DNA from: a virus | Reading direction: 5' to 3' (one strand) | Virus record (IMG/VR): IMGVR_UViG_3300046673_000058 | Location: 1 to 64,000 of that record | Length of the DNA stretch: 64,000 nucleotides | Shown here: positions 1,394 through 54,369 of the stretch, piece after piece | How positions within the stretch are numbered: the stretch's first letter is position 1 | Layout: each line of letters opens with the position of its first letter | The notes under the pieces: generated by a model | The model's database searches: none | Told to the model about the DNA's origin: nothing | The model's input: only the letters and a program-made list of their open reading frames with translations | Position numbers and translations under genes: made by a program

Positions 1394-2428
1394 CTAGCGT
1401 GTTTTCGGTTGATACTCTCTAACTCGTACTGTCATATTCAAGTTACATGCGCTTGTGCTTGTGATGGGGCCGTACACACTCGGCGGCGTAACGGGGTTGG
1501 TCGGCGTTGACCCCGTGGGTTGGAGTTCGGTTTCCATCGTAATGACCCAGACGTCCTCTGCGGCGTACCCCTGTAATAAATAATTATATGGCATCCATGC
1601 GTACGAGTTCGTACCCCATGTAGCCCCCCACGAGTTTTTTACGAGTAATGCACCTTTAGACCCATCAAGATTGGTGTGGGTGTCGTTATACCCATATATA
1701 ACGTTCTCATGCGCGCCGTATGACGTTTCCCCCGATGCAGGCATAGGAATATCAGTACCGCCAGATTGTAACTGCTCGTACCCCGCATAGATTGAGAGAC
1801 CTACGGCTGCAACTAGGCCGGGTAACGTAACTTTCGCGCCGGTTTTAGGATTTGTAGCGGTTACAGGGGTGCTTAACGTTGCCTTGATGCGGTCTAATCC
1901 GGTTTGCGTGTGCATATCACTTGCGCCGTTTACCCTCGCGTAATTACTCACCTTAAACCCTGCCGCCGCTGTCTTTGCCGATGCAGGGGGTTCAGCGTTT
2001 GTGGTGTTTGCATTATATGCAGTTCCACTTGGGTTTTCAGGTGTGAACGGCCATGGATAATTTGAGTTAGGCGATACACCCGTGTTTGACATAGCGTCAA
2101 AGTTTCCTAGCGGGGTTGACCCTGTGTCCCCACTTATCTCATCATCATCACGAGCCCACCGATATAGTGCGAGTACGCTTCCAGCCGTATATGAACCGAG
2201 TATGGCCTGCTGCAACCACTCAAAACAACCGACCGATGCACATGATACACAACAACCGACGCCGTCCTGATTCATCACACGCGTCGTAGCAGTAGAACGT
2301 AAGTCGATTGACGCTGCTACCCGAAGCAAGTGCTCGGGGGTTAGCTCGTATATCCTATCAGTCGGTAGGAAAGGAGAAGGGATATACCCTAAGCCGTGAC
2401 CGTTGGGTGTTATTGGTCTTTCAGTCAT
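1394..2428 (-). CDS. Papain-like (C1A) cysteine protease, virion-associated
   Basis: 344 residues. A papain-type active site is visible: Gln54 in VMNQDGVGCC with Cys60 six residues on as nucleophile, His240 in GAHENVIYGY, and Asn265 in VKNSWGATWG. There is no signal peptide. A Pro/Thr linker (around 303-322) leads to a C-terminal tail ending TVRVREYQPKTR. A nearly identical tail ends the preceding LamG protein, suggesting a shared docking peptide. The start overlaps that gene in an ATGA. A role in cutting host S-layer or envelope protein at entry or lysis is inferred. A second C1A protease lies at 41166-42059. Confidence 0.85.
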   Translation of the reverse strand: MTERPITPNGHGLGYIPSPFLPTDRIYELTPEHLLRVAASIDLRSTATTRVMNQDGVGCCVSCASVGCFEWLQQAILGSYTAGSVLALYRWARDDDEISGDTGSTPLGNFDAMSNTGVSPNSNYPWPFTPENPSGTAYNANTTNAEPPASAKTAAAGFKVSNYARVNGASDMHTQTGLDRIKATLSTPVTATNPKTGAKVTLPGLVAAVGLSIYAGYEQLQSGGTDIPMPASGETSYGAHENVIYGYNDTHTNLDGSKGALLVKNSWGATWGTNSYAWMPYNYLLQGYAAEDVWVITMETELQPTGSTPTNPVTPPSVYGPITSTSACNLNMTVRVREYQPKTR

Positions 2429-3321
2429 ATTGTCTTTGGCTGATACTCTTGAACGCGTATATTAGCAGTAAGTTTACAGAGTCCGGACGCTGTGTCGAGA
2501 GGGGGGCCGGGGGGTGTATAAGGGCCTGGCGTCGGCGGCGTTCCGCCTTTCCAAAGCACAACATCATCTGCCCAGTTGCCACCGCCAGAGAGGTCAAGCA
2601 CCGTATTATCTTCGCGCCAACTGTAAATGTAGCACCCGCACGGAAACCCCCCGCAGTTTGAAGTGTCGTTACACCCAGCACCCATTTGTATACAGTTACC
2701 TATGCAATACTCACCACCCGTAGGGCCCCCCGCATCTACTGAGACCTGAAAATAGTAATTGGTATTTAACTTCAAGGCATATCCATCGAAAGTAACATAT
2801 AGTGACTGGTTTGATTCACCACCTGGGGTGCCATGTATTTGGGTGGGTTTATTGCCTTCTACGCCAAGCCAGAACTGAGCATTTAAATAGCTTGCTTGTT
2901 GTATTTCAATGCTGAAATAATATATGCCCTCCTGAATTAATCCGCCACCGGTGGGGGGGCAGTTCGAGGAACCATCCCAACTACACTGTTCGTGGATATA
3001 ACCATAATAAAGGTCATTCGCAGCAGACCAGAGCTTCCCATCGTTACCAACTAGGGTACTATCGATTACACCATTAACAGGCCACCACTGACTGATATTT
3101 ATCCCAAACTGCCATGTGTGCTGATAAGGACTACTAATCCCCCCGGGTACTACTATTCCATCCTTATTACTGTTTAGGGGCCCCCACACAGGGTACCCAA
3201 CAGTGTCTTTCGCGTATTGCGCTCTAGCCGCTTGTCCGTTGTATGCAGATAATCCAGTTCCGTGGTTAGTTATAGTAGACGAGTTTTGGTCGAATTTGTA
3301 GTAAATGTATTGAGCTGACAT
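2425..3321 (-). CDS. LamG/concanavalin A-like adhesin
   Basis: 298 residues starting MSAQYIYYKFDQNSS, an opening that resembles the LamG units of the giant tail-tip protein just upstream. The body is aromatic- and Gly-rich beta sequence. A Cys-rich loop near residue 205 (CIGNCIQMGAGCNDTSNCGG) may form disulfides or bind metal. After a PPTPGPYTPPGPP linker the protein ends NIRVQEYQPKTI, matching the tail of the neighbouring protease. Probably a tail-tip receptor-binding subunit recognising surface glycans (inference). Confidence 0.7.
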   Translation of the reverse strand: MSAQYIYYKFDQNSSTITNHGTGLSAYNGQAARAQYAKDTVGYPVWGPLNSNKDGIVVPGGISSPYQHTWQFGINISQWWPVNGVIDSTLVGNDGKLWSAANDLYYGYIHEQCSWDGSSNCPPTGGGLIQEGIYYFSIEIQQASYLNAQFWLGVEGNKPTQIHGTPGGESNQSLYVTFDGYALKLNTNYYFQVSVDAGGPTGGEYCIGNCIQMGAGCNDTSNCGGFPCGCYIYSWREDNTVLDLSGGGNWADDVVLWKGGTPPTPGPYTPPGPPLDTASGLCKLTANIRVQEYQPKTI

Positions 3322-3325
3322 CTTA

Positions 3326-6300
3326 TCACCCCTTCGGCGGCGTTACTTTTATGTAATGCCACCCCGGTGTCGGCGTGCCTGCGTGGTTCAACGTAAGGAA
3401 CGGGAGTATGTCTATCGAACCACATTCCCCTGATAATGAGTTTACGGTGGTGCCGTCAATTTCTATGACATGCCCAGATGCGGATGTAGCACTACCTGTC
3501 GTTAGCCCCCCGGTCCCGGCGGCTTGGAACGGCTGCGAGTTAAGACTGAACTCAACAGAGTGCACCCGCGTAGTAGAAGGTCTAATTTCAAATTCAAACC
3601 ACGCGGGGTTGTTTGTGTCCGCTTGTGTAGTGAGTGTATAAGGAGTCGCAACGACCTGCCCCCCCTCATACTTAGGTTTGTCCTGTAAGTCACCCATTGT
3701 CTCCGCGAGCAACCGAGGCGTGTTCTTGTAAATGGCGTCTAATGTGAGTTGTATATCATGAGGGGTATCTAAGTTTGTTTTCTGTAATTTGGAAATCATA
3801 CATAACTCATTCACGCCGAGTTTCTCATCCATAACTAGAACATTCGTTCCTAACTTCAGCTCTTCAGACCAGTTAATAGTCGGATTAAGGTCATACAAAT
3901 CCACCACCCCAACCGACCACGATAAAATAGGCTGTGAAACTTTCGTTAAATACTGCGTTCCGGACTTTAATAACGCATCTTGCGATGTAGCCGTGTCATC
4001 TTTATACGTCCCCTCTATCATGCCGTATTTATCAATAGCATCCTGATTCGACAGCCACGGCGCGAGCGGATACGCAACGTAGTACTCATCGGTTGGGATG
4101 TAGTTTGAAGCAATGATTCCGATTGTCTTTTCATCAACGAAGAAGAACTGGTCGGTGACGTCGGTGTTGATTTCGTTGATAATCACATCAAGATTGTAAT
4201 ATCCGTGTTTATTTTCATATGTGCTCGTCTTCTCATACCTTCCTGCGGGGGCCCAGGCGTTATGTTTTATACCTGTTTGCGTGTCGGATTCATTATCGAA
4301 TCCTGGATTCGTTGTTGTGAAGTATCCCCCACACTCTAGTCCACCCAAATAGTTAGAGAACGCCACAGATGATGGATATAGGGATATGACTACCCAATAC
4401 GACCCTGTTGCCAACCACGCGCCTTGTAGTGGAAAGTTATACCATCTAAAGTTATCAGACGCAATCGAGAAGAAGTCCCCCACATACCAGAGCAACGGCC
4501 CTTGGTATGGCTCTAATACGCCCGTTTTATCTTGTTTAATAGAGTTATAAATCCCCACACAGAACTTTATCGCGCCGCCCGTTTCTTCTATCAGTCGTGT
4601 GTACTCAAGTAAGTCGCTTTGGTTCACCAACCCTTTTGTTTTTGATGGGTCTATGCGCCACAATAGGAGGGATATATCGGTTATCTGCGCCCCCCCTTGT
4701 GGGATGTTGAACATCTGCGCCGCCGCCTCATTACGTGTTCCGCCAGCACTAGCATAACCCCCTACAGTTGCTGGTAAATCCCATGGTGGGTCGCTTGTCC
4801 CTGCCTGAGCTGCTGCATCAGCACCGTGCGCCACAGGGTTCCAAGCGGTGTATGCCCCTAAATTCTTCCGACCACGCCCTATCAACATACCAGCACTTCG
4901 CGGAGATACCCCCATCTCAAAATTATTATAGGATACATACTCATTATCCGGTTCGACGCTGAAATACACGTACTGGTCAACAATCGTAGGGTTCTTCAGC
5001 CTGACCATCGGCTGGAAGTATGGTGGACTGTTAAGCGTTAGCTCCCCGGGCGCAGAGCCCGCCCCGCGCGGATACAATTTTGTTATTATCGAAGAATAAT
5101 CAGACTGAACATCCACACCTGTTGCGTTTTTACCAATAGTTATAATCGGCGGCTGGTCTGTATGGAACCCGCTCGGGTTGTAACTTCCGTATAGAATCCA
5201 CTGGTCAGAATTATAGTTATTCGAGAGTTGGTCTGCGCTTAGTGCGCTAGAGTGTTCACGGTACAGCGCAAGGGAGCAGTTTAGGTTATTCGTTTGGGCT
5301 TTGTTATTACCTAAGTAAATATTAAAGTCGCCATCAATCGTCCAGTCGCCCCACGTATTTCCATCGTCAGTTGATGTATTAGTATAAAGCTGCGTATTTT
5401 GGTTTATGTATGCGTCGAGTTCTAGAGTGGATGGCGCGATAATCGCAGGTTGTGCGTTCAGTGAGCCGCCTAAAGGTATATAATTATCCACAGGGGTCTG
5501 CATGCTCACGAGCGCGTAAGGGGTTGTATTATTAAACAAATATGTAAACCCACCACATTGCACACGGATATAATCAGCTTTAACGTCGACCCCTTCCAGT
5601 TCTCCACCGTGTGTGAATGCAGAGTAAGGGATTATCCTCGTTACGCCCGTCCCATCGGTATTCATCATAAAAACGCCGCCAGTTGGGTCCATGTTCCCCC
5701 ACCCGCAGTCGTAGGTGGCCGCCGTCGCGGTATAATAATGACCGCCATAAAAATCCATCCCCTCGGTGTACCACAAGGGGCTATCGGGATTTATCGTGGC
5801 AATATATGCGTTTGTGGTTAAGTCAAAGGTGAAGAGTTGGCACGGGCCTGCGCCTGTGCCAGGGGCTGCGAGGTCTATATCAACTATTGTATTATTTACG
5901 GTGTTCACCGTTACAGACCCACACGGTTCATGAGGCATAAAAGAACTTATTTGTGCTAAAGTAGACGTGTCCCATGTCGCTATCCATGCGTCCATCGTCT
6001 CAGCATTCACGCAGCACCCGTACAGTTTTCCGTCATACACCGCCCCGTCGCCCATGTGGTCCCCTCCACAGTCGGCGGCGGCGGTTAAGTTCGACGCGAC
6101 GACGTTTAGATTAGAGTCAAGCTTATAGATGGCTGTTGTAGTTATATAATAAAAATAGGCCCCATCCCACGCTAGACCCTGCTGCGAACCCTGCACGAAT
6201 CCGCCTTCAGTCGTTATTATCCATGCGGCCCCTGTGCTGTCGATTACACAAACAGCGATGTACCCATCAGAGGTAACGCACGCAGAGGGTGCAACATTGG

Positions 6301-9300
6301 ACGCGATGACCGAGCCCCCTACTGTGGCCCACGTGCTCCACGACGAGCCGTTCCATTCCATAGACCAGAGCGTGCCGTCACTTCCCTGCGCGAATATAGT
6401 AATATCGCCGTTGTCAGTAGCGACCGCCGTGGGTCCGCAGTAGATAGTAGCACCAGTAAGGTGAACCCAACCACTCCACGATGAGCCGCCGTTTGTGCTT
6501 GTTTTTTGGTAGAGTGACCCCGCCGTTCCACCTTCAACAAACACGTCAATTCTGCTTCCGTACGAACACGCGGTAAGCCCAGCATTCGGATAGAGCGTAC
6601 CACCTAAACTAACCCACCCACTCCAGCTCGTGCCGTTCCACTTATTGTAGTAACAGTATCCGTTACTCCCTCGCCCAAATAGGTGAATGGTATTAGCAGC
6701 CGGGGATGTTGCGGCTGGCGTCGTGGTGAGCGTTCCCCCTAAATTTTCAAGCCCCGTGCCGCCGTTTCCATCATCCCATGTATGAGAGACTGTGGCGTTC
6801 GCACCGACCATGAATATGTCCTTTCTCCCGGAACCCCACGAACACGCAGCAGGACCAGTTCCGTTCAACATCATCCATCCGTCGTTTGACCAACTTGACG
6901 CTGCGCTAGTGGATGTTTTACTTAACGTTTGTTGTGTGTTGTTTAGGTAAATCGAAGGAGCGACCGCAGGGCTACTAGGCCATACGATTTGAAGGTCATA
7001 CCACGTTCCTAATGCAATAGAATTAACAGGAGTGGTGTACGTTACCTGGTCACTATTCGCAGTGGTTCGTGAGGTGACAATACACTGATTATTTTCATCA
7101 ATCCACACTTCCCACGGTCCGAGCTGTTGTTGCTTTGACCAAAGCCTTCCGGCGGTACTTGTTTCGTTAAGGTTAAACAGGAACTCAAACGTAGTTGCAG
7201 ATGTGTTATCAATTGCCCCACCGTGCGGGGCTTCGATGTAATCAGTTGCACCGTTAAAGGCCCACATCCCCGCGCCAGAGGAGATGGGTTCATAGTCGGG
7301 CTGTTGTGCTGTCGCATTATACGCCGCACCCGCGTTTCCTTTGTTTATAATCGTTGTCCCGGTGGTCGGCCACGTGCTGTACTCAACCTCAGACGATTCG
7401 GAATTTACCCCTTCGCGCCATTTGTTCGCGGCGTATTCTGCTTTTAGTGCCACATCACCAAGGGCCGTACTGTGTAATGATAAAAAGGAGAGGGTCATTG
7501 CTGAATTATTGGCGAGCGTAACGTCGTTGCCGATGTATATATCCTCACCTAAGTCAGATGCCCATGCGCCTGTCCCAGTTTTGCTGTGTGTGATTGTCAA
7601 CTTTGTACCGTTTAGGTACATCACAGGCACGCCAATACCCGGGCCTAAAGAACCATCCCACGCGATTTGTATATAATTCCATTGCCCTATGTTAACCGTA
7701 CCAGTGGTGCTCATTATATACTGGTCCATCGTTCCAGAACCAGTGCCGGTCGTTGTGCGCTGAACTAATATTCTCGCTGAACTATCCACCCACGCGATTA
7801 CAAAGCCACCTTTGGAATAAATATAACTATAATTAGTCGCACCAGCGGCGTCTATCCTGAATATCGCCTGGAAAGTGAAGTTGTATAAATTCTCAAGTTC
7901 AGGTACGTCAGGGATTACAATATAATCGGTAGTATCCTGGAACTGCCACGCCGGTGCGCCGTTGTTAGTTAACTCATAGTACCCTGGGCTGCTCGCTACC
8001 CCGTCACCATCAGCACCCGCAACGCCCCCGTCGTTAGGTATTAACAGACCTTGGCTCGGGAAGTAATCATATATAACTTGCGCTGCGTTGGTGACGTTCA
8101 CTGGGTCGTATGAGTTCTGTATAGCGGCGAATGTACTAGCAAGGGTTAGTATGCGTTTTGAGGGGTCAGATGGAGGTATATAAACCCTACAATATCCACC
8201 AGTCTGTTGGATTATTTTATCTATGCCTGTTTTTATCGTTTCCCAGCTAAGGTCAACATCAAGCGGCATGTTAAGTGTGGGGTCAACGTAAATACCCGTT
8301 ATGAACCCGTCATTGAGTATTTCAGTACTAATATCTTGTAGTACCTGTAACGTCATACGCTGAGAGCTTTTATACTCAAAAGCGATGTTATACCGATTAA
8401 GATATTCTTCCGGCCCGTCTGCGGTGACTAATAGATTGTACCCACTCCCTGCTCCCAGAGTAGAGCCACCACTCCCCTGCACCCCACCAAAGTCGCCATA
8501 CGCTTCTACTTTTTGTAGTACAAACGCCTGCTTAAATTGGTTGTCTCTGCCGTACCACCATATCTCATACCCTTTCGGGTTTCCTGAGAGTGCCGGAACT
8601 AATGGAGAATCAATATTAAGGTTAAACGTGAGTAAATCAGCGTTCCCCAACTCCTGCTGAACCTGCGGGGCGATTCTACCATCTAGCACTCCGATATAAT
8701 TAAACGCCCTGTTAATGAGTTTAGCCCACTTACTCCAACCGGCAATTCCCACGCTCGCGGGGGTCCATTCCGTGTACCACAGGGCGCCGTCCTGGCCGCG
8801 TCCGAAAAGGGTTATCTCATTCTCGTTATTTGAAGCGGCGGCTAAGGTGCTTGTGACGGGACCGCCGATGTTTACCCACGCCCCGCTAGTAGTCCAATTA
8901 GAACTGGTATTCGTCTTCGTCCAGATTGAATTATCAGAGCCTACACAGTACAGGTCAACCCGTCCGGATGTCATGGACACCGCAGCAGGTCCGGTGCCTG
9001 GGTGTAGTGAGCCACCTAAACTATACCACGGGTGCCACGTGGTGTTATCAGCAGACCACCTGTACCAACAAGCCCCATCAGTGCCTCTTACAAATACACA
9101 AATTCCTGTTTCGTAATAACACGCTGCGGGTGATGAAGATGCCGCCCCGCCAAGTTGCTGCCATGATGACGGGCTAGTAATGGCGGGGACTCCTGGGGAC
9201 GCATGGGTATCAAGTAGTGTATAAGGGTAAGTTCCAGAGAACGTGTAAATATCCCCCCCCACTATGACGCTGATTCCGGCGTCAGTGGTGCATAGCCCTT

Positions 9301-12300
9301 CGACCTCCAACCCCGCAGTTGTTGCCCCTGTATCTGGATATGTGATTATTATTGACTCACTACTGCCGTTGGGGTTCATCACTCCAACCACCGCAGTCTC
9401 GCCCGCCACCCAGTTCTCATTTGTTGAGTAATAATATTTACCGTTGTAAGGGCATATCCCTTGGTAGTAGATTCCTGCAGGGCCATCGCCTGTGATTGAA
9501 CCTTCGTATGCGAACGTATCTAAGTTGAACTTGAACACCTTTGTGTGCCCTAGTGCAGTGCTTCCGGATGTGCCGTATTGTATCGCTACTAAACAGTTGT
9601 TCTCAGCATCTACACCAACACCGCCTATGTTAAGCACCTCATACGTGAGTCCAGATAATTCACATAAATCATAATTCGTTATAAAGCTCAGGTCGCTCGT
9701 GTTGAACAACCCCACCATCTCTTTTTGAGGGAGTTCTTGCGTAGTACAGAAACAGTAAAGAATGCCGTTATTTAATCCAGCCCCCCCTAAGTGGTCGCCA
9801 CCACATAGGGTCCCTACATTTTCCCTATACATGACTACGTTCATGCTCTGGTCTAACTTGTAAATAGACCACGTAGTAACGTAATAATAATACGTCCCGT
9901 CAAACGAAATGCTTTGTGGCTGCAAATATGCCGTTCCTGGTGTGCCCTTTAAGTGGAATAATGCGTTGCCTTTCCCGACGGCGAACACATTGATTTTCCC
10001 ATCCGCGTCCATACAAACAGAGGGCCCGGCATTCGCAGCAAGCGTCCCGCCAAGGGTCATCCATTCCCCCCACGTTTTACCCCCGTCGATTGAACCTTTG
10101 TAATAAACCGCCCGGGTTAGCCCTTGCGCAAAGACAAATATCTGGTTTTCCGCTGGGGAGACCGCAGAGACCGACGAGACAATCATTCCCTGTAAATCCA
10201 ACGCGCTTTCATACCCATCTGCGCTTGTGATGTACATTACCTCTCCGTCGACTTTGGAGGAAAAGAATACGTCATCCCTACCTGGTGCGCTCGAACACGC
10301 TGCTGGTGCTCCACCGTTCACGACCTGCCAGCCAGGGTTGCGTTGCCGGACTTCTAAAGTGTATGGAACAGTTATCGGCGGTTCTTGGGTGGGGACATAG
10401 ATTATGTTTATGTCGGATGTTTCGGTTATAATCAGCGTATCTGTTTCTGCTACATTAATACTAGATGAGAACTCTTCGAGCGAATGCCCTTCGATATTTC
10501 TTAGGTTTATCGTTTCGTGCGACGTAATCTTGGGAAACGAAGACGTTTCCCTAACAGAGAGGTTCATCACCTCGGAGTTAGTGAATCCGAACGTATTGGT
10601 CTCGCTAACCGATAGTGTCGCCGTCTCGTCAGAAAAGTAAGTAGGGAGTATTTGAGTTGTTCCAGCGTCAGAATCAGTTAATATAGCCGTTTCAGTCGAT
10701 GTGACATACTTACAGCCTACCTTCTGAATATATGAATTCTCAGTTACGATAAGTGTTATTATTTCAGGTGTTGTGACCTCACTTATGGTAGTTACCGATA
10801 CGTATGACTTTTCAGTAATCGAAAGCGTTATAACTTCATCCGTATTTACAACCCTGTCGCCGCCGCTTATTTGGGTACTGTTGCGCTCTTTGGGTTTGAG
10901 CGTTATCATTTCTTTCGACGTTTGATGAATCGTAAACGATGAAAATTCTGTAGGTGTGAGGGTGTTAGTATCTGGAGAAGATACATCTACTGTGCTCGTA
11001 GCCCATATCGCGCTATCGGCGGCGTAATTACTAGCAAAGTCACCGCTTGCATCGTAGTTGTACCACCTGAAAACCGCGATAGTTCCGTCTAAACCTCGGT
11101 TATTATTCCAGTAGCCGTCTATGTTCCCAACTATTAGCGAACCAACCGGACAGTCATCCATCCAGTCGCCGGTTCCCGTGTCAAAGTGGTATAACGTCTG
11201 TTGAGTGCCGTTGATGAATATTGCAATTCCATAATCATTCGGCCCTTCCATCGCGTCATAAGAAATTTGGATATCATACCAGTTTCCGATTGTAACGGGG
11301 GTTCCGCTTGTGTAATACGCGTCCCAGTTGCCGTCAGTGGTAAATCGTTGCAGTTGAAGCCTGTTGTTTGGAGTATCAACAAACAGACACCACTCACTAT
11401 TCGTATTAGTCGCGGAGTCTATAGCCCGCTTAGAAAATAACCTCGGTTGTGTGCTCGCTCCAGAGAACGTGCCGTTGAGGTAAAACGCTATCTCGGCGGA
11501 GTAATAATCTAAATCACAGGTCTTTGAACCGTTAGGAATCCAAATATAATCAGTATTACTTGTGAACTTCCACGCCTTATGTCCAGACGGCAGGGTTATC
11601 TGTTTATTTGAGCTAAAGTGACCGTTATAGCCACTGCCTGTATTCGACCCCGTGTTGGTGATGAGTCCACCAGAAACAGCCCAAGTAGAGAGGTCAACGC
11701 TTGCATTTGAGGGTCTATACGTAGAGTTCCAAGTACTCCCTCGGTATTTATCATAATACCAGTGCCCGTGGTTCGCAGATGCAAAAGAAGCGGATTGATT
11801 GGTGTTATACTGCCGGTAGACCATAAGCCAACCGGCTGCGTTATAACCGCGCGATGACGACGGGCACGCTGAGTTGGCAGAGTAGTTCATTATATTGGCG
11901 CTGCCAACCGAATCGTTGTACCACGCACCAGTCGGATATGAATTATCAGTACCCGCGTTAACCGTTTGCTCTACGGGTGTTGCACCGTCAGTACCTATCC
12001 ATATCCTCGGCTTTGGGGTGCTGGCTCCGTTCGGAGTTGCTCCTGCAGACCACGCGATTTGAATATAATACTCATGTCCTGTCGGTGTTGAACCCGATGG
12101 AGTGTAAAAGTAAATATCATGGCCGCTCGTGTCGTAACGGGATAATATAAGATTCTGGCTGCTGTCCTGGAAGTAAATCTCATACGCGCCGACGCCTTTG
12201 TCCCATATCTTGTTCATCCCGTGGCCGCCAGCGTGGTAACTGACGTATATCTCCCAACTAACGGTGTTTTGGTTGTTAGTCGTTGAGTTGGCGGGGATGC

Positions 12301-12463
12301 AGATAAAGTCGTTACTACCCGTCAAGCCCCAGTACGATGTGCCACTTGCGGAGAGTGTGTGGAAAAGAGACGGCGTGCTACAATATCCATTACATCCCGA
12401 AGCGGTGCCTTTATTCGTCCATGTCGTCACGCCTTCTGGAACGTAATAAATCGTCTGCGCCAT
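3326..12463 (-). CDS. Giant tail-tip hub (Tal-like) with LamG and propeller insertions
   Basis: 3045 residues. In order: two LamG-like units (about 1-490); a region of seven TLxxTE-type beta repeats (about 495-705); a PLL/DUF346-like beta-propeller (about 720-1245) interrupted by a different propeller carrying CGGDHLGG near 886; the first half of a phage hub (from FNYIGVLDGRIAP near 1253); a third LamG (about 1484-1690); a fourth LamG (about 1694-2421) split by a second PLL propeller, itself split by a second inner propeller with CGGDHMGD near 2131; the hub resumes (TKLYPRGAG, about 2441-2930), including the VDLYDL...LGTNVLVMDEKLG segment typical of Tal proteins; a beta domain closes the chain. 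It follows the tape measure and Dit genes, as a hub should. It probably combines tail-tip structure with glycan binding. Domain edges are estimates. Confidence 0.8.
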   Translation of the reverse strand: MAQTIYYVPEGVTTWTNKGTASGCNGYCSTPSLFHTLSASGTSYWGLTGSNDFICIPANSTTNNQNTVSWEIYVSYHAGGHGMNKIWDKGVGAYEIYFQDSSQNLILSRYDTSGHDIYFYTPSGSTPTGHEYYIQIAWSAGATPNGASTPKPRIWIGTDGATPVEQTVNAGTDNSYPTGAWYNDSVGSANIMNYSANSACPSSSRGYNAAGWLMVYRQYNTNQSASFASANHGHWYYDKYRGSTWNSTYRPSNASVDLSTWAVSGGLITNTGSNTGSGYNGHFSSNKQITLPSGHKAWKFTSNTDYIWIPNGSKTCDLDYYSAEIAFYLNGTFSGASTQPRLFSKRAIDSATNTNSEWCLFVDTPNNRLQLQRFTTDGNWDAYYTSGTPVTIGNWYDIQISYDAMEGPNDYGIAIFINGTQQTLYHFDTGTGDWMDDCPVGSLIVGNIDGYWNNNRGLDGTIAVFRWYNYDASGDFASNYAADSAIWATSTVDVSSPDTNTLTPTEFSSFTIHQTSKEMITLKPKERNSTQISGGDRVVNTDEVITLSITEKSYVSVTTISEVTTPEIITLIVTENSYIQKVGCKYVTSTETAILTDSDAGTTQILPTYFSDETATLSVSETNTFGFTNSEVMNLSVRETSSFPKITSHETINLRNIEGHSLEEFSSSINVAETDTLIITETSDINIIYVPTQEPPITVPYTLEVRQRNPGWQVVNGGAPAACSSAPGRDDVFFSSKVDGEVMYITSADGYESALDLQGMIVSSVSAVSPAENQIFVFAQGLTRAVYYKGSIDGGKTWGEWMTLGGTLAANAGPSVCMDADGKINVFAVGKGNALFHLKGTPGTAYLQPQSISFDGTYYYYVTTWSIYKLDQSMNVVMYRENVGTLCGGDHLGGAGLNNGILYCFCTTQELPQKEMVGLFNTSDLSFITNYDLCELSGLTYEVLNIGGVGVDAENNCLVAIQYGTSGSTALGHTKVFKFNLDTFAYEGSITGDGPAGIYYQGICPYNGKYYYSTNENWVAGETAVVGVMNPNGSSESIIITYPDTGATTAGLEVEGLCTTDAGISVIVGGDIYTFSGTYPYTLLDTHASPGVPAITSPSSWQQLGGAASSSPAACYYETGICVFVRGTDGACWYRWSADNTTWHPWYSLGGSLHPGTGPAAVSMTSGRVDLYCVGSDNSIWTKTNTSSNWTTSGAWVNIGGPVTSTLAAASNNENEITLFGRGQDGALWYTEWTPASVGIAGWSKWAKLINRAFNYIGVLDGRIAPQVQQELGNADLLTFNLNIDSPLVPALSGNPKGYEIWWYGRDNQFKQAFVLQKVEAYGDFGGVQGSGGSTLGAGSGYNLLVTADGPEEYLNRYNIAFEYKSSQRMTLQVLQDISTEILNDGFITGIYVDPTLNMPLDVDLSWETIKTGIDKIIQQTGGYCRVYIPPSDPSKRILTLASTFAAIQNSYDPVNVTNAAQVIYDYFPSQGLLIPNDGGVAGADGDGVASSPGYYELTNNGAPAWQFQDTTDYIVIPDVPELENLYNFTFQAIFRIDAAGATNYSYIYSKGGFVIAWVDSSARILVQRTTTGTGSGTMDQYIMSTTGTVNIGQWNYIQIAWDGSLGPGIGVPVMYLNGTKLTITHSKTGTGAWASDLGEDIYIGNDVTLANNSAMTLSFLSLHSTALGDVALKAEYAANKWREGVNSESSEVEYSTWPTTGTTIINKGNAGAAYNATAQQPDYEPISSGAGMWAFNGATDYIEAPHGGAIDNTSATTFEFLFNLNETSTAGRLWSKQQQLGPWEVWIDENNQCIVTSRTTANSDQVTYTTPVNSIALGTWYDLQIVWPSSPAVAPSIYLNNTQQTLSKTSTSAASSWSNDGWMMLNGTGPAACSWGSGRKDIFMVGANATVSHTWDDGNGGTGLENLGGTLTTTPAATSPAANTIHLFGRGSNGYCYYNKWNGTSWSGWVSLGGTLYPNAGLTACSYGSRIDVFVEGGTAGSLYQKTSTNGGSSWSGWVHLTGATIYCGPTAVATDNGDITIFAQGSDGTLWSMEWNGSSWSTWATVGGSVIASNVAPSACVTSDGYIAVCVIDSTGAAWIITTEGGFVQGSQQGLAWDGAYFYYITTTAIYKLDSNLNVVASNLTAAADCGGDHMGDGAVYDGKLYGCCVNAETMDAWIATWDTSTLAQISSFMPHEPCGSVTVNTVNNTIVDIDLAAPGTGAGPCQLFTFDLTTNAYIATINPDSPLWYTEGMDFYGGHYYTATAATYDCGWGNMDPTGGVFMMNTDGTGVTRIIPYSAFTHGGELEGVDVKADYIRVQCGGFTYLFNNTTPYALVSMQTPVDNYIPLGGSLNAQPAIIAPSTLELDAYINQNTQLYTNTSTDDGNTWGDWTIDGDFNIYLGNNKAQTNNLNCSLALYREHSSALSADQLSNNYNSDQWILYGSYNPSGFHTDQPPIITIGKNATGVDVQSDYSSIITKLYPRGAGSAPGELTLNSPPYFQPMVRLKNPTIVDQYVYFSVEPDNEYVSYNNFEMGVSPRSAGMLIGRGRKNLGAYTAWNPVAHGADAAAQAGTSDPPWDLPATVGGYASAGGTRNEAAAQMFNIPQGGAQITDISLLLWRIDPSKTKGLVNQSDLLEYTRLIEETGGAIKFCVGIYNSIKQDKTGVLEPYQGPLLWYVGDFFSIASDNFRWYNFPLQGAWLATGSYWVVISLYPSSVAFSNYLGGLECGGYFTTTNPGFDNESDTQTGIKHNAWAPAGRYEKTSTYENKHGYYNLDVIINEINTDVTDQFFFVDEKTIGIIASNYIPTDEYYVAYPLAPWLSNQDAIDKYGMIEGTYKDDTATSQDALLKSGTQYLTKVSQPILSWSVGVVDLYDLNPTINWSEELKLGTNVLVMDEKLGVNELCMISKLQKTNLDTPHDIQLTLDAIYKNTPRLLAETMGDLQDKPKYEGGQVVATPYTLTTQADTNNPAWFEFEIRPSTTRVHSVEFSLNSQPFQAAGTGGLTTGSATSASGHVIEIDGTTVNSLSGECGSIDILPFLTLNHAGTPTPGWHYIKVTPPKG

Positions 12464-19375: not shown

Positions 19376-19795
19376 TTATAGGGAAGCGTTCGGCACGTTT
19401 ATGACAGCTATACTAATGTCCGCCGCTACGTCGTAACTCACTGTACACGTGTAGTCGCCCGTATCAGGTGAGTCCTTCTCACCCCATCGGTCGCGCAGCC
19501 AAACCCCAGTTATTACTGTTTTGGTTCCCTTGACCGTGATTACTTTGTCCATACACGCACCTGAGTTGCCCCACTGGTCTTTCTGACTTGTGAAGGTTAC
19601 GGTGTGCTCGGATGCGTCGCTGTTTGTGATTACAACGACCGTCCGCATCACGTCATTGATGGGTACATAGACATACTCGTCCGCTACTTTGTACTTGCCA
19701 GCATCTTCCGAAAGTTCTTCGGACACAACGGAGGTCATTGTAAACGCTACTCCGCCCAGCGTCGGTACGAGCGGCGTAAATGTTAAACTTGTCAT
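19376..19795 (-). CDS. Beta-sandwich structural protein, paralogue A
   Basis: 139 residues, all-beta. It shares with the gene immediately upstream (19812-20216) an N-terminal TFxxLxPxxPTL pattern, a central TGVWLxxxWGxxD and a C-terminal (M/I)SIAV(I/V)xVPxAS(L/I). The two are therefore tandem duplicates. Their position between tail tube and head-closure genes suggests virion subunits such as tail decoration or neck appendages. No named family is recognised. Confidence 0.65.
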   Translation of the reverse strand: MTSLTFTPLVPTLGGVAFTMTSVVSEELSEDAGKYKVADEYVYVPINDVMRTVVVITNSDASEHTVTFTSQKDQWGNSGACMDKVITVKGTKTVITGVWLRDRWGEKDSPDTGDYTCTVSYDVAADISIAVINVPNASL

Positions 19796-19811: not shown

Positions 19812-20216
19812 TTATATACTCGCGTAGGGTACTTGCACGACCGCTATACTCATGTTAGTCAAACTAGCTTCTGCGTGCCACGTAAGCTCACAGCCGCCGT
19901 ATGCGCCGCTTGTATTGTCTCTGTTTCCCCAGTGATACGGGAGCCACACGCCTGTTAGTGTTGTGCCGCTTGCTGCCGTAACCGTCTTGTCACTACCTCC
20001 TACTGTCTGGTAGTTCGTAAACGTGACCGTCTGGGTGGTACTAGTGTTCTTAATGAACACAAGGGTCATGAGCGTGTCGCTTAGAGGCACCACCTGGTTT
20101 GCCGCTGCGGATGTAAAGATAAGCTCCGCAGGGTCAAGTGGTGCAACCCCGGACGTTGCGTTCGGCCCAGGGTCTAGCGTGGGGATTATCGGAGTTAAAA
20201 CCGAGAATGTTGTCAT
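19812..20216 (-). CDS. Beta-sandwich structural protein, paralogue B
   Basis: 134 residues from ATG 20216; a GTG at 20234 overlapping the tail tube stop is an alternative, and neither has a strong ribosome binding site. It is a paralogue of the following gene with the same TGVWLPYHWGNRD core and SIAVVQVPYASI end. Thr/Ser/Val-rich strands indicate a virion beta-sandwich. Confidence 0.6.
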   Translation of the reverse strand: MTTFSVLTPIIPTLDPGPNATSGVAPLDPAELIFTSAAANQVVPLSDTLMTLVFIKNTSTTQTVTFTNYQTVGGSDKTVTAASGTTLTGVWLPYHWGNRDNTSGAYGGCELTWHAEASLTNMSIAVVQVPYASI

Positions 20217-20233
20217 TCGTATCGTGCCCCACA

Positions 20234-20734
20234 CTAGATTGCAACGTAATCGTATGCGCCGTTTCCAGTAAGTTTTCCTGTGTAAGTAATGAGGTTGTCG
20301 TGCGGCCCGTCGAGTGAGAAGTCACTGATTATCGCCCATCCGGTGTACGTTGAACCTGTCCCTGCGGGTTCTCCGTATTTGGGTGTGACAATCTGAACAT
20401 AGATTTGTCCTTCGTCGTTATCGTATGACCCGCTCTCCTCAAACGCGTCCTGTAACGCTACGAGACTTGGGTCCATAGCGCCAGTTGAATCGTCAGTAAT
20501 CCATACGCCGTCAAAGTCGAACGTCCACTGGATAAATCCTCTGACTACCCTGTACCACGGGAATGAATCTTTATGCTGTGCCTTGATAACATCCCCAGTC
20601 CGGCCAAATGTTCCTTTTCTTTGACCTGCGACCTTCGTAAATACCGGGGTGTCTGGCCCTGTTCCGCCAACAGTTCCGGCTGTCATTATATACAGCAGAA
20701 ACTTGCCGCCTAATTGTTCCGTAGGATTCGTCAT
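20234..20734 (-). CDS. Major tail (tube) protein
   Basis: 166 residues. The features GRTGDVIKAQHKDSFPWYRVV, FDGVWITDDS, VALQDAFEESG and a closing GWAIISDFSLDGPHDN follow the TP901-1/HK97-type major tail protein plan: beta strands, a loop naming the helix-forming residues, and a final sandwich strand. It lies upstream of the completion and tape measure genes. It would polymerise into the tail tube. Confidence 0.75.
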   Translation of the reverse strand: MTNPTEQLGGKFLLYIMTAGTVGGTGPDTPVFTKVAGQRKGTFGRTGDVIKAQHKDSFPWYRVVRGFIQWTFDFDGVWITDDSTGAMDPSLVALQDAFEESGSYDNDEGQIYVQIVTPKYGEPAGTGSTYTGWAIISDFSLDGPHDNLITYTGKLTGNGAYDYVAI

Positions 20735-35643: not shown

Positions 35644-35726
35644 CGCTTGACCTTAGGATACGCGCGTCGTGATGGCACTATCCTCTTTGAATACCACTTA
35701 CGGTAAGCAGTTCTTAGAATACTCAT
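35640..35726 (-). CDS. 28-residue basic peptide
   Basis: ATG 35726 overlaps the portal stop and its own TGA overlaps the next ATG, so it is coupled on both sides by ATGA. The product (MSILRTAYRKWYSKRIVPSR then RAYPKVKR) has about ten Arg/Lys and no acidic residues. The precise fit between two genes argues that it is translated. It could bind DNA or act as a head-assembly peptide. Confidence 0.6.
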   Translation of the reverse strand: MSILRTAYRKWYSKRIVPSRRAYPKVKR

Positions 35727-38521
35727 CGCTTTGCCTTCTTCTTCTTGCCGCCAAGTGGTGCGTTAACGTGAACATCCCCCGCACTCGGCTGCCCCGACTT
35801 AGCCTGCGACCCATACTCACTCGTCGCCGGTGTCTCCACGTTTAACCTTTGTTGGCGTTCAGTAGTATCCGCCGCCGTTTGCCCCGGAAGCATTGCGTCC
35901 GCCGCTGTCTGTTGCGGTGGCGCGGCCGTCTGTCCCGGAAGTAATGAATCAGCCGGTGGTTTTACCTCTGCGTCCTCGGGTTCAGGCTCTGTGGGGAGGT
36001 GTAAGATGTTCCAAATCTTGTTTCTAAAGTCCACAGTGTCTGGAATTGTGACACCCCCGCGTGCAAGTAGGGATATTGCATTTGCTATGTCAAGTCCCGC
36101 ACTTGAGGCGATATCTCCGTGGGTGAGTTTTGGTAGTGACTGGGGGTTTATGTTGGCGTTGAGCCTCGCTAATCTCGGTACCGCATACGAGTTAATCGTC
36201 TCTGCTATCGAATCGAGTATTGCGGTTATTGATAGACTAAAGATGTCGTTCCGCGTTTCCGCTAAGGCGTATGAGCCGGTTTGGTCCTGCCCCAACATCA
36301 GGAAATCCGCGAGAACAGTCATCGCTATCATCTTGTTGTATCTGTTGATTATATCCCCCGTCATGAACTGCCGCTGGCTCGAGGGGCCTAAGAGTTGAAT
36401 GTCGTACATTAACCCAGGGCCGCCGTCTTCGGGTGGGTAAAGTGTGGAGGGGAGGATTATGCCCTCGTCCTGGTTCCTGTGGATGTTGGTGATGACTTGT
36501 TTATAATAATCGCGGGCGCTAACAGCGTCCGCGTCTGAACCGAGCAGGACATTCTCAGGTACTCTCATAATAGGAATGCCTGCGAGGTCACGCTCAACGC
36601 CGATGGCTTCGATGTCTTCGATATTTTTCTTCAAATACCACGAACGGTACGCACCACGAAGCATACTGACGCCTTCTGGGTTCCCTTTGCGTGGTTTAAC
36701 CCTGAAGAGTAGGGATTTCTCCATCGGTATCTCAGTTATGCGGTAGTGTGGTGGGGCCAATTGAACCATGGCCACGACGCCGCCGTTAACGTCGAAGTCC
36801 CACCTAAGCAAACTTTCTTGGGTTCTGATGGCCCATTTTCTCCACCCTATGCGGCCGTCGTCGAAGTTGCTGTCGAGGGTTGGGTCGTCAGGGTGCGGCC
36901 CCTCGCGCTTTTTATAAACTTGCTCAAGCCAGCAGTTAGAAACAATTATTGGCCCCGCACAGAACGTGTGGTCTTCCTCTACTTCTAAGTCATAGACCGG
37001 CCCTTCATAATACACACGTTTAATCGAAACTATCTTATGTCCTAATGCTTCGTCATAAACTTTAACTTGAAGACCCTGCTGCTTTGCTCCACCGTTGGTT
37101 TCAGATTTCTCCGAGAGCCACCGCCACGCGGTGACGTAAGATACACCACATTCTTTAGCAACTTCGTGTAGTGTTTTTCCGTCTTCCCTAAGCTTCCGCG
37201 CTTTACCTTCTAATTCTGAGCGTTTCCAATCTGTTATTCTTGCAGGAAGCGCACCTACCTTGTACGCCACACCATCAAAACGTATGGGTGATGGTAATCC
37301 GAGTGCACCCGCGATTAGTTGCATTTGCTGCGCTAGTGACTTGCTTACTGTTGTTACTGCGCTTATTGTGAACCCTTTGGACTGGGATACAAAACCATCA
37401 CCCCATAACCAACCGTCAAATAGGCCACACGCAAATTCTTTTTCTTCGGGCAATTTTGAGAGCCGCTTATCGTGCGCATTATCACCCAACACCCACGAAT
37501 CAATAAGCTCTCGGAAACGCGGGTGTGAGATAGTAACCCGCCCTGAATTTGGCCTATCTTTACCTATAACTGGATACCGCCCCGCTTTCAAAGAACTAAG
37601 GTGGTGGTGTTTCTCAGCACCTTCACGTTCCATCCATTCGTCTATCTGGTTAGCAAGTTCTTCAACTTCTTTTGTGTGAACGTCAAACATAACGCGGGTT
37701 CTATCTGGTGCTCTACTCCCTTCTGCTACATACGCACCAACTAGCCACCCGGATAAGTAGTCGCCACCTTCTTTGAGTTTAGGGCGCGGACGTAATACGA
37801 TGTCCCCGGTGTTCAGCTCACCTGCGGTTTTCCATCCGTCCTTTGTTGGGAGTTGGTGCTCAGGCGTCATCTGTATCGGATGTGGGTACCCAAGTATCTT
37901 TAGTTCCACCAAATCGCCAGTGTATTCGCGGGTGTAAATTTTTGTTACTGCGCGTGCGCGGCCATGCTTAGTGAGAACTAAATCACCTAGTTTGACGTCC
38001 TGTATCTTGATAGGAACGCCTGTACCGTTTAGAATCATTTGATTAGTAGGTATGCACCAACCAAATATAAACATACTGAGTATTTCAGCTAACGTGTCTT
38101 CCCAGTTGACACTCATATCTTCAAACAAACACTGGCTAAAGAACTCTGCGGCCTGTTCGTCTTCCGGTGAATCGCCACCGGGTTCAAACGACCAATCTAC
38201 CGAGCGACATACCATTTCAACGGCGTAAAAGATTGACGAGATAATGGCATCATTGGTTGCCATTTCCTTATAAATCTTGACGCCTTTTTGCTGTTGGAGC
38301 TCTGGTAACCACTCTTCCCAGATGTACGGGCCCAAACGGAATAATCCGGTCGTGCCGTATTCCTGGAAGTAATTAATATTACTGGGCCGCGTGATTGAGG
38401 CCCCTTGTGAATCAAGCGTGGGGAAATCTGCAGGACTCAACCCGCCGCCACCAGACGTAACAGGCTGCTTGGAGATACGTTCAGCATCTTCTTTTGTTAT
38501 CTTCTTTTTTCTTGGCGGCAT
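35723..38521 (-). CDS. Portal protein interrupted by an intein
   Basis: 932 residues from ATG 38521 (AAAAGG upstream; a TTG at 38554 would add 11 residues). The N extein (LFRLGPYIWEEWLPELQ, KIYKEMATNDAIISSIF, EILSMFIFGW) and C extein (CWLEQVYKKREG, MSREITEIPMEKS-like region, PENVLLGSDADAV, DFLMLGQDQTGSYALAE) together match a DUF935/Mu-type portal of about 558 residues. The intein sits after FGW, within a conserved portal segment. The C terminus is Pro/Gln/Ala-rich. It forms the DNA entry ring and lies between terminase and head genes. Confidence 0.85.
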   Translation of the reverse strand: MPPRKKKITKEDAERISKQPVTSGGGGLSPADFPTLDSQGASITRPSNINYFQEYGTTGLFRLGPYIWEEWLPELQQQKGVKIYKEMATNDAIISSIFYAVEMVCRSVDWSFEPGGDSPEDEQAAEFFSQCLFEDMSVNWEDTLAEILSMFIFGWCIPTNQMILNGTGVPIKIQDVKLGDLVLTKHGRARAVTKIYTREYTGDLVELKILGYPHPIQMTPEHQLPTKDGWKTAGELNTGDIVLRPRPKLKEGGDYLSGWLVGAYVAEGSRAPDRTRVMFDVHTKEVEELANQIDEWMEREGAEKHHHLSSLKAGRYPVIGKDRPNSGRVTISHPRFRELIDSWVLGDNAHDKRLSKLPEEKEFACGLFDGWLWGDGFVSQSKGFTISAVTTVSKSLAQQMQLIAGALGLPSPIRFDGVAYKVGALPARITDWKRSELEGKARKLREDGKTLHEVAKECGVSYVTAWRWLSEKSETNGGAKQQGLQVKVYDEALGHKIVSIKRVYYEGPVYDLEVEEDHTFCAGPIIVSNCWLEQVYKKREGPHPDDPTLDSNFDDGRIGWRKWAIRTQESLLRWDFDVNGGVVAMVQLAPPHYRITEIPMEKSLLFRVKPRKGNPEGVSMLRGAYRSWYLKKNIEDIEAIGVERDLAGIPIMRVPENVLLGSDADAVSARDYYKQVITNIHRNQDEGIILPSTLYPPEDGGPGLMYDIQLLGPSSQRQFMTGDIINRYNKMIAMTVLADFLMLGQDQTGSYALAETRNDIFSLSITAILDSIAETINSYAVPRLARLNANINPQSLPKLTHGDIASSAGLDIANAISLLARGGVTIPDTVDFRNKIWNILHLPTEPEPEDAEVKPPADSLLPGQTAAPPQQTAADAMLPGQTAADTTERQQRLNVETPATSEYGSQAKSGQPSAGDVHVNAPLGGKKKKAKR
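36935..38056 (-). other. 374-residue intein with LAGLIDADG endonuclease
   Basis: It begins at Cys (CIPTNQMILNGTG) and ends at Asn before extein Cys (CAGPIIVSN/C). A splicing B block GYPHPIQMTPEHQLPT is present. Two LAGLIDADG-like blocks, LSGWLVGAYVAEGS and ACGLFDGWLWGDGF, mark a homing endonuclease. A helix-turn-helix-like piece (LHEVAKECGVSYVTAWRWL) lies between endonuclease and C-terminal splicing blocks. The usual penultimate His is Ser here, a variant known to be tolerated in some inteins. Confidence 0.85.
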
Positions 38522-38552
38522 TTTGTTAAAACCTTTTGAACCTTTCGAATGC

Positions 38553-38582
38553 AATCATCATTTAATCATCAGCTAATCATCA
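38553..38582. repeat. Three helically phased 8-base iterons
   Basis: AATCATCA occurs at 38553, 38564 and 38575, exactly 11 bases apart, with a weaker AATAATCA at 38584. One-turn spacing suggests repeated binding of one protein to one DNA face. The site lies just upstream of the portal start and downstream of terminase, a possible operator or packaging-related site. Confidence 0.5.
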
Positions 38583-38588
38583 GAATAA

Positions 38589-38735
38589 TCACTTCAATTC
38601 AGAAACGCACGTGCGCCTTGACCAACGTGATTTTCTCTCTCCGTAAGATGATAACTTACGTGATTGGTTGGCCTGTGCGTGGCATTGTGAGCACCACCCC
38701 TGAATTGTGCACCATTGGCGGCAATCGGAGCTCAT
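38589..38735 (-). CDS. 48-residue Cys-rich protein
   Basis: The ATG at 38735 overlaps the terminase stop in an ATGA. The N-terminal part (CRQWCTIQGWCSQCH) has four Cys and one His in a compact zinc-binding spacing; the C-terminal half is Ser/Arg/Lys-rich. It lies between large terminase and portal, so a packaging accessory is conceivable. No family recognised. Confidence 0.55.
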   Translation of the reverse strand: MSSDCRQWCTIQGWCSQCHAQANQSRKLSSYGERKSRWSRRTCVSELK

Positions 38736-41165: not shown

Positions 41166-42059
41166 TTATTGTAGTATGCTAGGCGTTGAAGCAAACTGCA
41201 CTGACGCTGGCGGCGGAGTTACGAAATCCGACTCTGTAATGATTGCCCATGCGTCGCCTGACTCGTACGAAACATTATCAAAGAACGAGTACGGCATCCA
41301 CCACAGCCCGTTCGCACCCCATCCAGTACCCCAACTGTTCTTAGCAAACAACGCGCCTTTTGAACCGTCGTAATTGCCTACATGGTTGTCGTCATAGCCG
41401 ATGAACACATTCGCGTGCCCTCCTGCGATTCCGCCGCTAGGTGTGGGCATGTTGCCGTCACTACCTGTGTTAAAGAAGGAATTTGGCACGTCAAAGCCGA
41501 ACATGACGGGGTAACACGGGGGGAGAACGGCGTTAGGCGCGATGGCTGCCTTTATGTTGGCGAGTGTAATTGATTGGTCATTGGCGTCGAGTCGTGTTGC
41601 TTTGGTGGTTTTGTCCTTTGCTGCGTCGTTGAGGACTTTTGTTGGGACGGGTGTGCCGAGTTGCGCGGTGTATGGGAACTCGGTTTCTGGTGCTACGCCT
41701 TTGTTTTCTAGTACCCATGCCATTGTTGAAAGACTACTGCCGACGTCCTGCGTTGGCGGTGACGATTGCCCGTCGTGGACGAGCGCACATTGGTACAACT
41801 GCATCCTAGAACCGTTGAAGTATGTTCCTATAGCTGTGTAACTTCTTATCTTAGAACAATTGTCACCAGCGTTGGCCGTACACGAACCCATGCTCATCTG
41901 GTCCTCAACAGGAGTCCCATCTTTTATTATATAACTAGCCGGTAGTGTTTCAATCTGTTCGCGGCTTAACAATAGTTTAGCGTCTTTATGCGCAGGGTCG
42001 CGCAGGCATCCCATATAGTATTTTCTTTCGTTCGTTTCATGATATACTTTATTTCCCAT
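41166..42059 (-). CDS. Second papain-like (C1A) cysteine protease
   Basis: 297 residues. Active-site elements: Gln54 and Cys60 in DQMSMGSCTANA, His215 in AGGHANVFIGYDD, Asn241 in AKNSWGTGWG. This DQxxxGSCTANA form is common in prokaryotic and viral C1A peptidases. There is no signal peptide and no EYQPKT tail, unlike the protease at 1394. Two tiny membrane peptides follow at once, so export through a membrane lesion to attack the S-layer at lysis is a reasonable hypothesis. Confidence 0.85.
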   Translation of the reverse strand: MGNKVYHETNERKYYMGCLRDPAHKDAKLLLSREQIETLPASYIIKDGTPVEDQMSMGSCTANAGDNCSKIRSYTAIGTYFNGSRMQLYQCALVHDGQSSPPTQDVGSSLSTMAWVLENKGVAPETEFPYTAQLGTPVPTKVLNDAAKDKTTKATRLDANDQSITLANIKAAIAPNAVLPPCYPVMFGFDVPNSFFNTGSDGNMPTPSGGIAGGHANVFIGYDDNHVGNYDGSKGALFAKNSWGTGWGANGLWWMPYSFFDNVSYESGDAWAIITESDFVTPPPASVQFASTPSILQ

Positions 42060-53027: not shown

Positions 53028-53164
53028 TTCTTCTTGTCCCAAAACGTACATATTTTGGGATAAAGCACTGTGTCATCAAGCAGGTGAAACCCCCGGGCAG
53101 AGCAGTAGTATCCAGTACCTGATGTGCCTGCGTGTTGGCAACTCGCACAGGGTTCTAAAATCAT
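53024..53164 (-). CDS. 46-residue Cys-rich protein
   Basis: MILEPCASCQHAGTSGTGYY: Cys6, Cys9, His11, Cys21 and Cys39 give a probable zinc site. ATGA overlap with the upstream lectin-like gene. Function unknown. Confidence 0.6.
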   Translation of the reverse strand: MILEPCASCQHAGTSGTGYYCSARGFHLLDDTVLYPKICTFWDKKK

Positions 53165-54369
53165 TTTATAACCTTAGCCACTGCAACCCAGCCGGACCAC
53201 ACCGTGCCATTCCACGTCTTACGGTAAAGTGCCTTGTCAACTCCTACCGCTTCGAGAGTTACGTTGGTGCCGTCGAAGTACGCTGCTGGTCCAGTTCCCG
53301 CGAGAACCTGCCCACCGAGGTTGAACCACGTACTCCACGCGGTGCCGTTCCACGATTTCATATACACTCCATCGGGCGAACCGCGAACGTAGACATCCAT
53401 ACCAGTCCCACGGGTTATTGCCGATGGTGCTGAAGTGAGATTGCCACCTAGCGACGTCCATGTTTTGCCGTCGTCAGGACTGTGCCATAATGCGTTGTCT
53501 GAACCTTTTACAAATATATCCATTCCTAAACCTCCTGGTGTTGATGCGAAGTTGATTGTTGTCGGGGGTGGCGTTACGCCTCCAGCACGTTTCAGTATCG
53601 GCGTCATATTTGGTGGATACATTTTCATGAGGTCGGTAAATAAGCTAGGCATCGAAAAGCCCCCCTGGTTATACCACCATTGGAACCCGCAACATGGTGC
53701 TTTCTGACTTGCCATCGCGTCGACCATTTCTGCGTAGGTGCTCGCGTCAGCGCCGTAATCAGTTTGTGCCCACGTTCCGATACAGAGCCCCTGTTCAAAT
53801 GTTCCGTGGTCTTTGTTAACCCCTGCTTCCGTGCCTATTTCACTCGCGCTAATCATGCTGCTTGAGGTGTAGGTCTCAAGCCACACGTTTAGCGTGCCGG
53901 GTTTTATCGTGCAGTTCGGTGTGTATTGGTTACCGGCAAATATGTCATTGTTCCCCGTGGGGCCTCCTGTGCCTTGGCCGCCATAAGTTCCTGCGACCAT
54001 CTTACCTGGTGAAGCACTCATCATCGTGCACATCTCAGCTCCAGATTCTGATTCGCCGATTACCCATTGTACTCCGGAACTGGCGAGTTGTTGATAGTAA
54101 CTGAGGGACCAATTCGTTGAGGTGCCGTCATTGGAGTTGTTGACCCCGCACGTAACGCCGTTCGCCTGGCAGTCTGCAATGAAGGATTGGTTGGGGTAGC
54201 CCCCGTCGGAGATTACTAAGAGGAAATCTATTATTCCCTGTGCTTTTAACGGCGCTACAGCTTGGACCGTTGACGCTGGTAGCGGTGTTGTCGATGTTCG
54301 TTTTAATTTATAGGGTGTTGGGTTGGAGTCGCTTGAAGCAGCGAGGCCGTAAACCATCTGTTGTGTCAT
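53161..54369 (-). CDS. TIM-barrel-like protein with PLL/DUF346 propeller
   Basis: 402 residues. Residues 1-265 look like an alpha/beta barrel (IIDFLLVISDGGYPNQ, GVQWVIGESESGAEM, VNKDHGTFEQGLCIGTW, CCGFQWWYNQG), as in glycosidase or DUF1906-type folds. After a Pro/Thr linker, residues about 280-400 hold three PLL-lectin blades (MDIFVKGSDNALWHS, WTSLGGNLTSAPSAI, WSTWFNLGGQVLAGTGPAAY) like those of the tail hub. It lies in the accessory arm, away from tail genes. Likely a secreted or virion glycan-active protein. Confidence 0.6.
   Translation of the reverse strand: MTQQMVYGLAASSDSNPTPYKLKRTSTTPLPASTVQAVAPLKAQGIIDFLLVISDGGYPNQSFIADCQANGVTCGVNNSNDGTSTNWSLSYYQQLASSGVQWVIGESESGAEMCTMMSASPGKMVAGTYGGQGTGGPTGNNDIFAGNQYTPNCTIKPGTLNVWLETYTSSSMISASEIGTEAGVNKDHGTFEQGLCIGTWAQTDYGADASTYAEMVDAMASQKAPCCGFQWWYNQGGFSMPSLFTDLMKMYPPNMTPILKRAGGVTPPPTTINFASTPGGLGMDIFVKGSDNALWHSPDDGKTWTSLGGNLTSAPSAITRGTGMDVYVRGSPDGVYMKSWNGTAWSTWFNLGGQVLAGTGPAAYFDGTNVTLEAVGVDKALYRKTWNGTVWSGWVAVAKVIK

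Follow-up and report, generated by a model that had tools for sequence, protein, structure and literature searches.

The analyzed window comprises bases 1–64000 of a virus record that is 72781 bases (72.8 kb) long when complete. Three of its genes are transcribed from the minus strand in the order tail hub, cargo 1, and papain-like protease (Table 1). There are 4 nt between the hub stop and the cargo 1 start, and the end of cargo 1 overlaps the start of the protease gene by ATGA. The hub exceeded the Pfam gathering score for PF06605 (54.7 bits vs. 31.3), and the protease exceeded that for PF00112 (33.7 bits vs. 20.7). The protease label of the original prediction, which was made from the sequence alone, holds: in addition to the Pfam match, the protein has C60, H240, and N265 at what we take, from papain, to be the catalytic triad positions. 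Its LamG label for cargo 1 found no support, since neither this protein nor its counterpart in the related record L014 matched any Pfam family at E 0.1. We use "LamG-like" as a nickname only, for cargo 1 and its relatives.

Table 1. Features of the tagged locus and same-class genes elsewhere in the window
Feature	Coordinates	Strand	Evidence
Tail hub, 3045 aa, Prophage_tail family	3326..12463	-	PF06605 E 1.5e-14, aa 2441-2913
Shortened C-terminal beta domain of the hub, aa 2999-3045, without last strand	3329..3469	-	Profile of 7 whole domains
Cargo 1, tagged, "LamG" of the original prediction, 298 aa	2425..3321	-	No Pfam match; IMG/VR relatives 45-64% identical
Tag of cargo 1, aa 282-298, CKLTANIRVQEYQPKTI	2428..2478	-	21.8 bits, profile leaving out own record
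Cargo 2, tagged papain-like (C1) cysteine protease	1394..2428	-	PF00112 E 5.2e-8; PDB 3ois E 8.5e-17
Tag of protease, aa 328-344, CNLNMTVRVREYQPKTR	1397..1447	-	27.6 bits, profile leaving out own record
Second C1 protease, untagged paralogue distant from hub	41166..42059	-	PF00112 E 1.8e-12; C-terminus without tag
TIM-barrel-like protein (third cargo class), untagged, distant from hub	53161..54369	-	Profile E 7.1e-99; this class profile (A10) contains part of the protein itself

A 191-bp stretch beside the protease gene (1196–1386) is repeated at the extreme end of the record (72591–72781) with 99.5% identity, and positions 1–314 of the window are 76% identical to about 71612–71922 of the record. 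An IS605 OrfB/TnpB-type gene (PF01385, PF07282) is located at 47134–48258.

The protease ends in ...STSACNLNMTVRVREYQPKTR and cargo 1 in ...ASGLCKLTANIRVQEYQPKTI, and a Pro-rich stretch precedes both ends, as had been predicted. The shared peptide covers about 17 residues, and the bodies of the two proteins are unrelated, so whole-protein gene duplication fails to explain it. All 514 ORFs of at least 40 aa in the entire 72.8-kb record were ranked with a tag profile trained on other records only. The two genes ranked first and second, and the next match reached 13.4 bits at a site away from the C-terminus; this agrees with the claim that no other protein of the window has the tag. Among the 3321 pairs formed by the 82 predicted window genes, only two had at least 5 of their 12 C-terminal residues in common. 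The protease and cargo 1 share 8 of 12. The other pair, also with 8 of 12, consists of adjacent small virion-region proteins (19376–19795 and 19812–20234) that by eye resemble paralogues.

The scans of IMG/VR with the LamG-like protein and its alignment revealed four more records with the same arrangement: L005 (G002), L006 (G003), L008 (G005), and L014 (G009). Single-sequence searches for close relatives with the protease or the hub found none, and alignments were needed. The relatives' hubs are 27–33% identical to the window hub, and that of L014 matches PF06605 at 48.1 bits. L005 and L008 are near-copies (96.9% identical over 10.3 kb), so that the five records represent few independent lineages. 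Behind the hub, the window and L006 each encode two tagged cargos, and L005, L008, and L014 three each, a total of 13, all directly downstream of a PF06605 hub; by inspection, the genes of hub and cargo either overlap or are separated by no more than about 22 nt. The tagged cargos fall into three classes, protease, LamG-like, and TIM-barrel-like, and at E 1e-3 no class profile picked up a tagged gene of another class. The third label is a model resemblance, and any enzyme activity is putative: the model of an L006 cargo (pLDDT 70) matched assorted TIM barrels at E 1.2e-4 and up, with no enzyme named.

The tagged protease of L005 (7934–9928) and L008 (7959–9953) is split, directly after the NSW motif region, by an HNH-domain intein, which matched PF14890 in L005 (E 7e-17) and is assigned in L008 by near-identity. 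The window's portal protein (35723–38554) also contains an intein, with a LAGLIDADG-like domain.

The tag is conserved over the five records. With profiles that left out the tested record (for L005 and L008, both), the tags ranked first in four records at 17.3–27.6 bits, and the best other ORF there scored 13.4. The L014 tags, which have the variant PREYxGG, scored 11.7, 9.3, and 7.6, and other ORFs of that record reached 11.2, 8.1, and 8.0; its second tag was outscored by one untagged ORF and its third by three. In 12 of the 13 genes the 11-residue tag match ends 1 residue before the C-terminus; in the remaining gene the distance is no more than 5 residues. Conservation, placement beside the hub, and co-occurrence on different cargos are directly observed.

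Records G001 and G010, which have an unrelated hub, had no C-terminal tag, and their best ORF anywhere reached 14.2 bits. The alignment scans with the LamG-like protein, hub, TIM-barrel, and protease returned only contigs of the two hub types, or untagged genes away from the hub, such as the LamG-like gene of L007. In phage records, the protease gave two partial matches and the LamG-like, TIM-barrel, and L006 cargo tail searches gave zero. Seven records with the unrelated hub (L004, L009, L010, L011, L018, L019, and L020) share a C-terminal stretch of their own, G[IL][ST]-LRDHK[RK]-P. It is carried by a LamG-like fusion in L004 (9998–12208), L009 (7926–10127), L010, L011, and L020, and by a separate, weakly glutaredoxin-like protein in L018 (9963–10481) and L019; it is possibly a second, different tag.

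The tag follows position and genome rather than enzyme class. Class profiles applied to every ORF of the five tagged records picked up 13 cargo genes next to the hub, each with a tag; the six genes of the same classes at other places (two each in G000, G003, and G005) have none. Two truncated entries, a gene fragment in G005 and a copy of a window gene at the end of a stretch, were excluded from these counts. In a comparison of 10 tags, with L008 left out as a near-copy, tag identity was 68% within genomes and 31% between them, and 31% within enzyme classes and 40% between them; a clustering by genome as extreme as this occurred in 3 of 20000 permutations. The untagged protease of the window lies near the terminase gene (38732–40039). 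It and the untagged TIM-barrel-like protein are candidate lysis enzymes, as opposed to the tagged, putative entry versions.

The near-copies L005 and L008 are 100% identical in the C part of the hub, 99.6% in the TIM-barrel protein, and 96.1% in the protease, but only 66.4% in the LamG-like protein. All of their cargos are tagged, the divergent LamG-like pair included. The tag-plus-linker DNA of the L005 LamG-like gene is 76% identical, over 80 columns, to that of the L008 TIM-barrel gene. We read these sequences as the exchange of a cargo between the two with the tag kept.

The hubs of Bacillus, Caldibacillus, Halomonas, and Enterococcus phages end in a whole beta domain of about 80 residues, and in all five tagged records this domain is cut short. 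The first three hubs were reached through a weak tblastn lead (E 0.1–0.7) and the Enterococcus hub through another search. A profile of 80 positions, built on seven whole domains of which five come from named bacterial phages and two from faecal phage scaffolds, was run against 2650 ORFs from seven viral records. Its top six matches were the L005 and L008 hubs, two L006 cargos, the window hub, and one L014 cargo; the seventh (E 0.96) was a short ORF without known meaning. The hub ends of L005 and L008 matched positions 7–57 (E 2.8e-7), stopping one residue before the stop, and aa 2994–3043 of the window hub matched positions 8–57 (E 0.028). In L006 and L014 the hub already ends behind the ...VDG strand. 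In all five records, with hub ends at position 57 in three and before it in two, the domain lacks a terminal strand, as an acceptor in donor-strand complementation would.

There are thus two different split points, and in each record the cargo ends continue where the hub stops. The L006 cargo tails matched positions 29–72 (E 7.4e-4) and 29–63 (E 1.4e-3), and the TIM-barrel-like cargo of L014 matched positions 29–56 (E 0.41). In the PHROGs family phrog_4311, the whole domain spans 574–651, the L005 hub end 579–628, and the L006 cargo end 598–640 (E 0.32); the best-scoring stretch of the window hub lies upstream, at 332–428. A realigned profile of 81 positions, which includes these very sequences, placed the hub at 2–59 and the L006 cargo at 23–81. 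A DNA pattern for the middle segment matched only four contigs in IMG/VR, all of tagged records. Both the truncation of the hub and its colinear continuation in L006 are direct observations.

In our reading, the tag is the last strand that the hub is missing. When the tags were scored directly against the bacterial last strand, they ranked from 27 (best) to 965 (worst) of 1372 ORFs, which is not significant, so it is the colinearity seen via the tails of the L006 cargos that carries this reading. The L006 cargo model, in which residues 305–311 and 321–327 are strands, lends it modest help at a local confidence of about 50–57 of 100. The model of the hub C-terminus (pLDDT 49) is too weak for fold claims; its best Foldseek match had E 0.044, and in VIA the best Z was 6.9, with galactose-binding or carbohydrate-module-like rows at Z about 5, all short of that tool's trust level of 8.

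We consider it fairly probable that the tag is a docking strand, with which the cargos supply the last strand of the hub in trans. In the related bacterial phages, the last strand of the terminal beta domain belongs to the hub. In the present viruses the hub gene stops short of this strand (window, L005, and L008) or lacks the final two to three strands (L006 and L014), and the missing end would be carried on the C-terminus of separate protease, LamG-like, or TIM-barrel-like cargos translated directly after the hub. The tag would insert into the open edge of the terminal domain and complete it. A hub that is trimeric, as it is in related viruses, would offer three open domains for tagged proteins to fill. 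As many as three proteins that act on the envelope would thus be displayed at the tail tip for entry, each held by a flexible Pro/Gly-rich linker. Insertion, stoichiometry, docking to the tip, and the role in entry are what we infer from these sequences. Of the docking scheme in the original prediction, the conserved tag on different cargos beside the hub is strongly supported, and the hub truncation, with the missing part apparently on a cargo, strengthens the case for the docking itself.

Several observations count against docking. The tags score poorly against the bacterial last strand, some untagged ORFs of L014 outscore its tags, the hub model is poor, and the lineages are few. The match of one L006 cargo tail stops at profile position 63. 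The L014 hub is without the middle strands, and only the last of its three cargos supplies them as a middle segment; the other two bear the tag alone. L014 therefore fits poorly with a model in which one tag completes one hub, and it is the strongest argument against simple one-to-one completion. It is explained if the C-terminal strands of the cargos pack together, for example as an intertwined hetero- or homotrimer, with other contacts holding them to the tip and the hub truncation being secondary. L005, L008, and L014 have exactly three tagged cargos each, which also speaks for this reading. We regard this self-assembly as unlikely, as it leaves unexplained that the hub stops exactly where the cargo tails continue. 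L014 also looks as if an ancestral hub gene had taken up cargo genes, its last gene holding the entire missing piece as an insertion would leave it. After insertion at the 3' end of the hub gene, homologous recombination between the repeated 3' ends might shuffle cargo and thereby preserve the repeats with no docking role, which agrees with the swapped LamG-like cargo of L005 and L008 and with the match of tag-plus-linker DNA to a different cargo gene of a near relative. A relic of this kind would decay, yet the tag sits at or near the extreme C-terminus of all 13 genes and is retained across records whose hubs have diverged widely from that of the window, and we hold this account to be rather less likely still.

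A small, conserved, C-terminal peptide could also be a signal for another partner, by which the cargo is exported or processed or binds some other protein of the virion or the host. Sortase-type signals have a hydrophobic segment and a basic tail; by inspection the tags have neither, and untagged paralogues of the same classes exist, which makes such a role quite improbable. The original prediction had set against itself a longer homologous domain explained by gene duplication. The tag does appear to end a longer domain, but that domain is the hub's, split between genes. Its second counter-case, a tag that is not conserved, is contradicted by the five records. Two adjacent genes with a common end might suggest duplication of one ancestral protein; the bodies belong to three separate profile families (C1, TIM-barrel-like, and LamG-like) with no cross-match listed, and whole-gene paralogy, contradicted by the absence of homology along the bodies, has a negligible probability.

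Systems of strand complementation and of C-terminal tags on cargo are known. In the donor-strand complementation of chaperone-usher pili, an incomplete beta domain is completed by the terminal strand of another subunit. The arrangement proposed here shares the incomplete beta domain, the terminal strand from another protein, and an alternating hydrophobic pattern; unlike in pili, the donor end is C-terminal and sits on enzymes, a viral tail hub would act as acceptor, and insertion is a prediction. SpyTag/SpyCatcher is an engineered split CnaB domain whose tag is the last strand and carries cargo. The tag described here would likewise serve as the final strand of a divided domain, with cargo attached, but the system is natural. 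Since Lys and Asp are missing from several tags, there is no sign of a conserved isopeptide chemistry. The same C-terminal beta domain is found in the Prophage_tail/phrog_4311 hubs of Enterococcus phage EFC-1, Bacillus phage vB_BhaS-171, Caldibacillus phage CBP1, and Halomonas phage YPHTV-1. In these four phages it is whole in one polypeptide, whereas here it is split between hub and cargo.

HFTV1, a tailed virus of archaea, has a trimeric baseplate hub with a predicted carbohydrate/galactose-binding C-terminal domain, and its tail fibres attach at the hub N-terminus (PMC12494034). It resembles the present viruses as an archaeal tailed virus, their host being archaeal by inference; the available part of that source describes no split domain or tagged enzymes. 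The literature covered, mostly other than subscription journals and bioRxiv, gave no report of strand-complemented cargo on phage or archaeal virus tails, and none was recognised in the available parts of the papers it includes (PMC10848311, PMC11576556, PMC8651126, and PMC12494034). This suggests that the new element is the use of strand complementation and C-terminal tags to load enzymes on a viral tail hub.

Archaea are the probable hosts, since L008 and L006, two of the five records, encode Cdc6; the window's record is not one of them. These Cdc6 proteins matched 10 archaeal MAG loci with 23–31% identity. The LamG-like alignment found no relative in genome contigs. No match to the hub profile turned up among 4 and among 256 genomes of one class, nor any to the TIM-barrel profile among 398 genomes of one phylum. 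The genomes covered were other than methanogens, and having no positive control, these scans show little.

The chances seem about even that the locus is a natural tag and catcher, in which fission opened the hub domain and any protein fused to the last strand is loaded on the tip, letting the virus swap or combine its entry enzymes while the hub stays as it is. If docking is correct, it would provide a genetically simple route for placing several different enzymes on one tail tip. The same docking strand would serve unrelated cargos, with the exchange of cargo among close relatives visible in sequence. The tag would also offer a short transferable element for laboratory display. Docking would, moreover, account for the way in which tailed viruses, with archaea as their probable hosts, bring along proteases and other proteins that act on the envelope during entry.
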